Assembly: GCA_024280375.1 (NCBI GenBank)
Contig: JAJRQF010000035.1
Location: 62,001-126,000 of the forward strand
Reading direction: 5' to 3'
Source: Alphaproteobacteria bacterium
GTDB taxonomy: Bacteria; Pseudomonadota; Alphaproteobacteria; Rhizobiales; Rhizobiaceae
DNA length: 64,000 nucleotides
Positions 38,066 to 40,502 of the stretch are shown piece after piece (position 1 is the first letter of the stretch; each line of letters starts with the position of its first letter). The position numbers were made by a program, and so were the translations under genes. The notes beneath the pieces are model-generated. The model saw only the letters and a program-made list of their open reading frames with translations, searched no databases and was not told the DNA's origin.

Positions 38066-38746
38066 ATGAAGCGCTCGCAGGTAAATGAAATTATTCGCCA
38101 GTCAGATGCATTCATTCGTTCCTTTGGGTATGTTTTACCCCCATTTGCCTATTGGTCGCCGTCAGAATTGAGTTCAAAAAAACCAGAAGGAATAATTGCC
38201 GCCAGACTGGGTTGGGATATTACCGATTATGGTAAGGGAAAGTTCGATGAATTGGGCCTTTTTTTGTTTACGGTCAGAAATGGTTTTGCCGCTGATCTAA
38301 ATAAAGGGCGAGGCATGCTCTATGCTGAAAAAGTTATGATTTCCAGGAAGAACCAGATGTCGCCGATGCATCGTCATAACATCAAGGCCGAAGATATTAT
38401 CAATCGCGGTGGCGGCAAGCTGGTTTTAGAATTATTTATGTCGGATTCTGGCGACGGCATTGATCGCAATGCTCCGGTCTCAGTACCCTGCGATGGCGTA
38501 GAGCGGAAACTCCCTCCTGGTGGCTTGTTGAAGCTCGATCCAGGTGAAAGCGTTACCTTATTACCAGGTGTATGGCACGCATTTTGGGCTGAAGAAGATG
38601 ATGTGCTCATTGGCGAAGTTTCAACGGTCAACGATGACCGAACTGATAATGTGTTTGCAGAGCCTATAAGCCGGTTTTCCAAAATTGAAGAAGACGAAGC
38701 TCCCGTTCATCTGCTAGTGAGTGATTACGAAGAGATGATTGTGTGA
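38066..38746 (+). CDS. D-lyxose/D-mannose isomerase-like cupin protein
   Basis: A 226-residue protein of the D-lyxose isomerase (YdaE-like, cupin) family. The N-terminal stretch PPFAYWSPSELSSKKPEGIIAARLGWDITDYGKGKFDELGLFLFTVRNG and the manganese-binding MSPMHRHNIKAEDIINRGGGKLVLELF (two His, Lys, Glu) followed by LLPGVWHAFWAEEDDVLIGEVST are characteristic. The family converts D-lyxose to D-xylulose and D-mannose to D-fructose. It follows mnmA by 45 bp, with AGAGGAATTC before the ATG. Ring or pathway partners are not nearby. Confidence 0.88.
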   Translation: MKRSQVNEIIRQSDAFIRSFGYVLPPFAYWSPSELSSKKPEGIIAARLGWDITDYGKGKFDELGLFLFTVRNGFAADLNKGRGMLYAEKVMISRKNQMSPMHRHNIKAEDIINRGGGKLVLELFMSDSGDGIDRNAPVSVPCDGVERKLPPGGLLKLDPGESVTLLPGVWHAFWAEEDDVLIGEVSTVNDDRTDNVFAEPISRFSKIEEDEAPVHLLVSDYEEMIV

Positions 38747-38754
38747 ACAGGCGA

Positions 38755-38861
38755 CTAAAGCATGATTCCCAAAAGTAGGAGCCGGTTTTAGGAATAAAGA
38801 CATGAGACAACAAAGAGATAAAGTATATCGGACGAGTGCAATTGAATGCGATATGCTTTAG
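38755..38861. repeat. RIME-like palindromic intergenic element
   Basis: A 107-bp element just after the sugar isomerase gene, bounded by perfect 9-bp inverted ends, CTAAAGCAT (38755-38763) and ATGCTTTAG (38853-38861). Inside is a second inverted pair, ATTCCCAAAA and TTTTAGGAAT, around 38766-38797. The sequence style (GCATGATTCCCAAAAGTAGG, ACCGG-like core, GGAATAAAGACATGA) is that of the intergenic mosaic elements spread over Rhizobium-type genomes. Only one copy was noticed in this window. Confidence 0.6.
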
Positions 38862-38886
38862 ATGGTTTTTGTGGCGTGCTGCAATC

Positions 38887-38925
38887 AAAACCCCGTCGCG
38901 CTCTGTAAACTTGCGCCGACGGGGT
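38887..38925 (-). terminator. Minus-strand rho-independent terminator
   Basis: Read on the minus strand, CCCCGTC-GGCGC pairs with GCGC-GACGGGG around an 11-nt loop, followed by TTTTG. No minus-strand gene ends near it; the nearest upstream one is slyX, 490 bp away, so it may serve a non-coding transcript. Confidence 0.65.
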
Positions 38926-38929
38926 GAAA

Positions 38930-39260
38930 TCAGACCGGTTTTTCCGGCTGTATATTTCGGACTGGTTTTACATTTGCACTATTAGCTGGTCAGCAATGCT
39001 GGGCTTTCGCCATAGAACGCGTTTTGCATTCAACTAAACAAATAGCCGACTGGAAAATATTAACGCTCGCCATCCGATAAGTTTGTCAAATTTTAATATT
39101 ACGCTGTTTGAATCGCAATTTGAATATTTAGGTCCGCGACCCAAACGGTGACCTTCCTTTCGGAAATGGTCAATTTACACTCTCAGGTGGACTCATGGCT
39201 CCTCCTTCTGACTATTCACCCGATCAACGGTAGAAAAGAATTGCGATAGACCGCAATTTT
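38930..39260 (-). other. Unclassified structured non-coding region (possible minus-strand RNA)
   Basis: On the minus strand there is a perfect AGGAGG (39201-39206), then an ATG at 39196 and eight codons (Met-Ser-Pro-Pro-Glu-Ser-Val-Asn) ending in TGA at 39170-39172. That TGA is the first base triplet of a hairpin (39149-39172) with TGACC and TTCC arms and a GAAA tetraloop; a GGTC-GCG-GACC mini-hairpin (39131-39141) follows. Upstream, AATTGCG / CGCAATT arms (39239-39258) form an operator-like dyad. A terminator lies at 38887-38925. This resembles a leader peptide plus attenuator, or a stand-alone small RNA, but no gene follows in the reading direction. I do not recognise it. Confidence 0.4.
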
Positions 39261-39413
39261 CAAGGAAATCTCAAATACAAACACATAGGGGTGCGTATGA
39301 AATTTGGATTTCAAGTTGAATAGTCCATAATAGAATGGTCCCAAAATAGTGGCTGGTCAATCACTGATTAATCACATTTTATTACTGTTGAAGGTCTGAA
39401 TTATCAGAGATAT

Positions 39414-39626
39414 TTAATAATGTGGCGGCTTGGTAACTTCATGAGGCTGTCCATCATCTTCAATTGACAGCACCTGTTCAGAAAGCAAGCGAACCTGACG
39501 AGATAGCCGGTCAACCTCTTTCCATTGATTGATAACCGCTTCGTTGAGCGTGTCTATAGTTTCATTCTGATGGGTAATTTTAACCTCGAGATCAGCAAGT
39601 CGCTGCTCCAATTTGGTATTGCTCAT
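39414..39626 (-). CDS. slyX: SlyX family protein
   Basis: A 70-residue coiled-coil protein (NTKLEQRLADLEVKITHQNETIDTLNEAVINQWKEVDRLSRQVRLL) ending in the proline/histidine-rich tail KPPHY. This pattern (a leucine-zipper-like dimer followed by PPHY) is the SlyX signature. The function is unknown. It is downstream of recR on the same strand with 67 bp between. Confidence 0.88.
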   Translation of the reverse strand: MSNTKLEQRLADLEVKITHQNETIDTLNEAVINQWKEVDRLSRQVRLLSEQVLSIEDDGQPHEVTKPPHY

Positions 39627-39693: not shown

Positions 39694-40299
39694 TCAAAAC
39701 TTGGTACGCGCTCTCATGGCCGCCAACAAGGTGCCCTCATCGAGATAATCCAGCTCACCACCTACTGGTACACCATGCGCCAAACGTGAAATGGAAATAT
39801 CGAAATTATCCAATTGCTCGGTTATATAATGGGCAGTGGTTTGGCCTTCAACTGTGGCGTTTACCGCGATAATTACTTCATTAACATCAAATTTTGCCAC
39901 GCGGTCAATAAGAGACGCAATTGCCAAATCTTCCGGCCCCACTCCATCCAGGGGTGATAATGTACCACCCAATACATGATAGGAAGCTCTAAGAGCCGAT
40001 GCCCGCTCAAGTGCCCACAAATCTGAAACATCCTCGACAACAATAATTGTCGAAACATCCCTGCGAGGATCAAGACAAATAGTGCATGGAGACTGCGTAT
40101 CAATATTGCCGCAAGTCTCACACACTTTAACTTTTTCAACGACCTCTGCCATGGCCGCAGCCAGGGGCACCAATAAGGTTTCTTTCTTTTTGACCAGATG
40201 GAGAGCAGCTCTTCTGGCCGAGCGCGGACCAAGGCCCGGCAAGCGTGATAATAACTGGATTAACCGTTCCAGTTCGGGGCCGGTGACACGTTTTGACAT
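39694..40299 (-). CDS. recR: Recombination mediator protein RecR
   Basis: With RecO, RecR loads RecA on SSB-coated single-stranded DNA in the RecF pathway. The protein (201 residues) has the HhH-containing start [29 protein letters not shown], the C4 zinc finger [16 protein letters not shown] near residues 57-72, and a Toprim domain ([37 protein letters not shown]). I chose the ATG at 40299, giving the usual 200-residue length, over GTG at 40326. The usual upstream partners dnaX and ybaB are not present next to it; slyX follows. Confidence 0.95.
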
Positions 40300-40502
40300 A
40301 TCAATACTGTACTGTGATTCGGGCACGTTTTGCTATTGCCTGATGCCAATTAATTACCCCAATGAAATAAAATAGCCATCATGCTTCAGTAACGTGCTTA
40401 TCAAAGATATGTCAGCGGCCTTGCGAATACCAAGTCTAAACGATATTTACGAACTTCAGGGCATTGCCCTTCTATTGGGATGTAACACGGGAAATCAAAA
40501 AT

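Follow-up and report, generated by a model that had tools for sequence, protein, structure and literature searches.

Arrest leader peptides of the MgtL type, and other attenuators that rely on proline, combine a short ORF containing prolines, a strong Shine-Dalgarno (SD) sequence, a hairpin at the front edge of the stalled ribosome and an intrinsic terminator. Stand-alone RNAs with very short ORFs include rreB, a small mRNA of the Bradyrhizobiaceae that is ~165 nt long and carries a 17-nt extended SD and a GTG start codon. In Sinorhizobium meliloti, rnTrpL/peTrpL is a dual-function sRNA with a short translated ORF that can act in trans; it is leaderless and derived from the trp attenuator (PMC7298713, PMC10117765). 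PPD, PPG, PPE and PPN are among the motifs at which ribosomes pause in dependence on EF-P (PMC4140641), and PPD, PPG and PPN are among diprolyl arrest motifs (PMC6544042); a pause at PP-X motifs is not always seen in vivo (PMC4140641).

The window analyzed here, 64,000 nt of a Rhizobiaceae contig (JAJRQF010000035.1), carries a minus-strand element that invites comparison with each of these systems. Like the MgtL-type leaders, it has a short ORF with prolines, a strong SD, a hairpin placed at the front edge of a ribosome that would stall on them, and a terminator; unlike them, it appears to be a complete transcription unit with no regulated downstream gene in most lineages, and only Pro3-Pro4-X5 is conserved. 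It shares with rnTrpL the character of a small rhizobial RNA with a short ORF, but has an SD, a promoter of its own and a Pro-Pro-X motif, and the sequences are unrelated. With rreB it shares the stand-alone small mRNA type, a strong SD, a very short ORF and an occurrence in the Hyphomicrobiales; by description the two are set apart, since the RNA described here is 300–440 nt long, encodes Pro-Pro, always starts with ATG rather than GTG, and has a short SD with a GGAG(G) core only in place of the ~17-nt extended one. The EF-P-dependent motifs PPD, PPG, PPE and PPN (PMC4140641, PMC6544042) are the same as those found here, but they sit inside ordinary proteins, whereas here they form the conserved content of a mini-ORF in a structured RNA.

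The features of the element are listed in Table 1. An initial annotation had described, on the minus strand, a dyad, AGGAGG, the mini-ORF MSPPESVN*, a hairpin with a GAAA loop and a terminator, all of which are present where it placed them; on that strand (38925-38883) the terminator stem reads ACCCCGTCG...CGACGGGGT-TTTG. Its 'second small hairpin' corresponds to a helix within 39147-39102 that is longer than H2, and the element reaches further upstream than the span it gave, to the promoter. With a putative transcription start near 39325, the minus-strand element would run from ~39325 to 38883 as a predicted stand-alone transcription unit of ~440 nt.

Table 1. The minus-strand RNA element and its neighbors, in window coordinates
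Feature	Position	Strand	Description
Promoter	39332..39360	-	-35 TTGACC (39360-39355), 17-nt spacer, -10 CATTCT (39337-39332)
5' hairpin H1	39239..39258	-	AATTGCGG-TCTA-TCGCAATT; AATTGCG/CGCAATT dyad; predicted fold
SD sequence	39197..39206	-	AGGAGGAGCC; AGGAGG at 39206-39201
Mini-ORF MSPPESVN*	39170..39196	-	ATG AGT CCA CCT GAG AGT GTA AAT TGA
Hairpin H2	39149..39172	-	TGACC-ATTTCC-GAAA-GGAA-GGTCA; GAAA-loop upper stem; first pair at +25 of ORF
Helix H3	39102..39147	-	CGTTTGGGTCGC pairing with GCGATTCAAACAGCG; predicted fold; longer than H2
Helix H5	38928..38963	-	AGTC...CCGG-loop-CCGG...GATT; from sequence
Intrinsic terminator	38883..38925	-	ACCCCGTCGGCGC...GCGCGACGGGGT-TTTGATT; same position in most family members
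SlyX-like gene (70 aa)	39414..39626	-	Upstream neighbor; ORF; outside RNA
recR	39694-40326	-	slyX lies behind recR
226-aa ORF	38066..38746	+	Convergent downstream neighbor; ORF; outside RNA; presumably cupin/D-lyxose-isomerase-like

That the region is structured beyond chance is borne out in several ways. A 380-nt stretch has a better predicted fold than each of 100 dinucleotide shuffles (z -3.0). In two congeners with 90% and 70% DNA identity, the SD, mini-ORF and hairpin are nearly invariant while the flanks diverge, and the terminator is likewise nearly unchanged where the contig extends that far. In the closest congener H1 persists, with pairs changed from G-C to G-U and from G-U to A-U; the 5' hairpin at this place is a different one in other lineages. 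Most pairs of H3 are kept in the 70% identical congener, including a change of UUUG/CAAA to GGUUG/CAGCC, and a long helix occupies the same place in the Rhizobiaceae and Hyphomicrobiaceae alignments; the CCGG..CCGG helix (H5) also appears in the Rhizobiaceae consensus. A longer ORF over H2 (TTG at 39173, 24 aa), open in three congeners, was rejected, as by inspection it changes without synonymous bias.

Plain BLAST gave no significant match past the genus. With a short IUPAC pattern around SD-ATG-CCACC, copies that share the mini-ORF, hairpin and terminator came to light in other families, and carriers in a genome-wide pattern scan included Hyphomicrobium zavarzinii, Methylocapsa aurea and metagenome-assembled genomes of Aestuariivirga, Afifella and Rhodobiaceae; among the 26 matches at least three (L109, L114, L117) lacked the hairpin and terminator and looked like chance hits. 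A first covariance model (R1), run on 397 genomes, gave mostly chance matches below ~22 bits, and its matches were used only after inspection for the full layout. A core alignment of 27 sequences (A3) was the basis of a second model, R2, which matched 48 of 103 genomes of the Hyphomicrobium family, 74 of 200 of the window's own family, 22 of 249 sampled across the order and 15 of 385 across the class, most of these last being weak; two phylum-level matches outside the class were also weak. The covariance searches yielded 129 family members, from Rhizobiaceae, Hyphomicrobiaceae, Aestuariivirga-like, Afifella-like, Methylocapsa and other lineages, mostly with one copy per genome and roughly 300–420 nt long in relatives. 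Their common layout is a TTGAC-N17 promoter, 5' hairpin, GGAG SD, mini-ORF, covarying H2, further helices and intrinsic terminator. These sequences delineate a candidate RNA family that is absent from Rfam 15 and common to many soil and plant-associated bacteria.

The mini-ORF begins with ATG in all 129 members, with GGAG 9–11 nt upstream in 120. Pro3-Pro4 is present in 129/129, and its codons change only synonymously: codon 3 is CCA in 114 and CCG in 15, and codon 4 is CCG in 78, CCT in 35, CCA in 9 and CCC in 7. At codon 2, Thr (106) is followed by Ser (8), Asn (8), Ile (5) and Met (2). Residue 5 is Asp in 62, Gly in 39, Glu in 11 and Asn in 6, the other 11 having Q, A, K, T, Y, S or H; one of D/G/E/N thus stands at residue 5 in 118/129, compared with 7/129 at residue 6. 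The covariance model was trained on sequences selected with CCACC and therefore favors Pro-Pro copies. The codon-3 wobble base, however, is as invariant in the training alignment as the Pro bases are, and the model disfavors change at both alike; the wobble base nonetheless changed in 15/129 and the first and second Pro bases in 0/516 (Fisher p = 1.7e-11, an indicative value, as the members are related and the counts are non-independent events). At the level of sequence, these comparisons demonstrate amino-acid-level selection on the mini-ORF for M-x-Pro-Pro-[D/G/E/N], the conservation expected of a polyproline-type arrest mini-ORF. A purine bias at codon 5 acting at the RNA level is not fully separable from the choice of amino acid.

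The same counts bear on the idea that the SD-to-CCACC block is a base-pairing or protein-binding motif, through SD sequestration (GGAGG/CCACC) or target pairing, with an incidental ORF. No part of the RNA is more conserved than this block, which can fold into a weak GG-GG/CC-CC hairpin, but that hairpin shows almost no compensatory change, the Pro codons vary at the wobble position only, and codon 4 takes all four CCN forms. We regard this explanation as quite improbable.

Conservation vanishes past residue 5 or 6, ORFs have 6 to 40 codons, and stop positions are spread from +19 to past +100, with a mode at +58. The TGA stop that opens H2 in the window (39172-39170), placed at the hairpin base by the initial annotation, is therefore a local arrangement and not a feature of the family. 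This pattern, with conservation ending early while length and stop vary, is more in keeping with an arrest signal than with a functional peptide, and the earlier suggestion that the adjacent prolines stall ribosomes gains strong comparative support. A role for the short peptide as the actual product, whether regulatory or secreted, seems extremely improbable on these grounds, even though Hyphomicrobium-like copies have a frame of 18–19 residues (MTPPGYLAGPRAEARSKLG). In Hyphomicrobium-family copies such as L148, L149 and L150 the ORF crosses H2 and ends GPRA-x-ARS-K/R-LG, and this C-terminal likeness is explained by the H2 sequence that overlaps the ORF end.

H2 shows strong covariation. In the 27-sequence alignment, 45 cells changed on both sides compared with 18 in shuffles (score 0.50 versus 0.23), and slid controls were all far lower; with 68 distinct sequences the count was 120 versus 41. 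The first pair of H2 lies at +25/+26 in 108/129 members. The front edge of a ribosome is 15–16 nt from the P-site codon, and when codon 4 (+10 to +12) occupies the P site it would reach ~+25, so that the front edge of a ribosome halted at Pro4 is expected to be flush with H2. As judged by comparison across the family, the SD, M-x-Pro-Pro-[D/G/E/N] and a hairpin start at +25/+26 are its fixed features. An EF-P gene is present in the window's genome.

Evidence for a free-standing unit comes from both ends of the RNA. Among the 106 members with enough upstream sequence, 102 have TTGAC 50–220 nt upstream on the sense strand, whereas its reverse complement occurs in 5, with ~14 expected; TTGAC is typically followed after ~17 nt by a CAnAnT-like -10. 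Both promoter elements of the window are kept in the two congeners, with 17-nt spacing. In consensus folds, built from 54 members of the window's family and from 14 Hyphomicrobium-like ones, H2, a long H3 and a terminator with a U tract are seen, as are a fourth and a fifth helix that show compensatory changes. Of the terminator stem pairs, 52–53 of 53 form in Rhizobiaceae, and the G-C core is intact in 14/14 Hyphomicrobiaceae. A simple count of hairpins followed by T-runs (98/124, compared with 60/124 on the opposite strand) is not discriminating alone, and the aligned stem was used as evidence instead. Taken together, the comparisons establish a conserved, predicted structured RNA with its own putative promoter and terminator, which are the attributes of a stand-alone sRNA or small mRNA; of the two origins first proposed for the element, an independent regulatory RNA is thereby favored.

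The other proposed origin, a leader whose gene was lost, finds no support in relatives. There too the RNA has a terminator of its own at its end; the gene beyond it is in many cases convergent, and none follows consistently. Neighbors vary by lineage: slyX in the window and, as orthologues, next to the RNA in both congeners; regR/actR in one group; and, in many Rhizobiaceae, a uvrA that is divergent, the downstream gene being ssb in one of these and a convergent gene in another (in GC-rich loci ORFs were called by length only and named by sequence recognition, making orientations and names provisional). Since neighbors differ between lineages, there is no lost target gene to restore. A transcription attenuator, in which arrest would decide terminator formation and transcription of the next gene, that gene having been lost in the window, accounts for the leader-like order of parts, and EF-P-dependent stalling can alter termination (PMC5021804). 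One Rhizobiaceae locus (L182) has ssb downstream in the same direction at +412, and a local cis role there is possible. Against an attenuator, the window, an informative congener and many other copies have their next long ORF on the opposite strand, a co-directional downstream gene is not conserved across relatives, and in a non-exhaustive search of the consensus folds we saw separate helices and a terminator, with no conserved antiterminator alternative. As no cis gene is conserved, we consider this reading improbable.

We think it probable that the element is a free-standing small RNA on which a ribosome is held at Pro-Pro-X; H2 would serve as the read-out, EF-P would set the dwell and a downstream domain would act. 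A ribosome would load at the strong SD and make fMet-x-Pro-Pro; the slow peptide bond from Pro-Pro to Asp, Gly, Glu or Asn, which would need EF-P, would then cause a pause with the front edge at ~+25, flush with H2. Dwell time would depend on how active EF-P is and on the cell's translation state. During arrest H2 and the downstream fold would stay intact, and on release they would be opened by the ribosome. Since no gene is regularly served in cis, the downstream domain would then most likely act in trans or by way of RNA stability. Translation of the mini-ORF, the arrest, the role of EF-P as sensor and the output in trans are what we infer from sequence comparison. A further proposal, to which we give somewhat less than even weight, is that this widespread, uncatalogued alphaproteobacterial RNA family senses the state of EF-P or of proline decoding, the trapped ribosome setting the fold of a trans-acting 3' domain; it would amount to a polyproline 'leader peptide' that works apart from any leader.

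One alternative is a small mRNA or dual-function sRNA whose ORF, by being translated, simply protects or exposes it, Pro-Pro tuning early elongation without regulated arrest or EF-P sensing. This would account for the strong SD, the invariant ATG and a short ORF with an unconserved C-terminus and stop, and dual-function rhizobial sRNAs such as rnTrpL are known (PMC10117765). It leaves unexplained the restriction of residue 5 to strong arrest partners and the fixed distance from H2 to Pro4, and we judge it rather unlikely. The arrest reading, if true, would provide a natural reporter of EF-P function and would mean that leader-peptide logic is able to work on independent RNAs. With this family, a conserved RNA missing from Rfam joins those of a much-studied bacterial order that includes the rhizobia. 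The family appears to be built around a ribosome-arrest motif and not a regulated neighbor gene, and can be tested directly in laboratory species that grow in culture.

The initial annotation had recognized no known class, and database comparisons agree. On the RNA strand of the window, Rfam 15 gave no match at the gathering threshold and none credible at lax thresholds, and scans of the RNA strand of homologous loci from many lineages gave no credible match. The rhizobial sRNA families ar7, ar9, ar14, ar15, ar35, ar45, suhB and BASRCI are likewise intergenic small RNAs of the same order, but none matches the RNA strand in the window or the scanned homologous loci, lax thresholds included. On the plus strand, 38748-38909 has a sub-threshold match to BASRCI27 (26.7 bits, cut-off 59.8, E 0.0014); it has the look of a dispersed palindromic repeat (AAAGCATGATTCC...CGGTTTT), and it overlaps the terminator region of the RNA at its edge. 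A tRNA/tmRNA scan of the window found none. The main texts of the literature covered contain no description of the RNA, and those of the sRNA surveys make no mention of ssb or uvrA. A homologue, one of BjsR1-R10 included, is possibly listed without function in an sRNA or transcriptome catalogue.

Several variants were noted at the margins of the family. Six genomes (G829, G855, G857, G863, G1061, G300) have two covariance-model matches each, possibly paralogues. In family f132, matches L143-L147 were judged mostly false, and L132 (MQELPPG..., MQELPPGHPVWPR*) was kept only as a possible divergent member; its start is two codons further upstream and the 13-nt spacing from Pro-Pro to the hairpin is kept, as the arrest model predicts. 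L261 and L268 (genus g71) are clear members (MTPPDQTGDLAQRKV...) with a terminator, and could be an sRNA already detected by Northern blot. L187 and L194 (genus g470) carry a second tiny ORF, ATGAAAATCAAATCTCTTTGA (MKIKSL*), at ~+190 to +215 from the mini-ORF start, which occupies the place of the terminator in relatives and may represent a differently wired variant.
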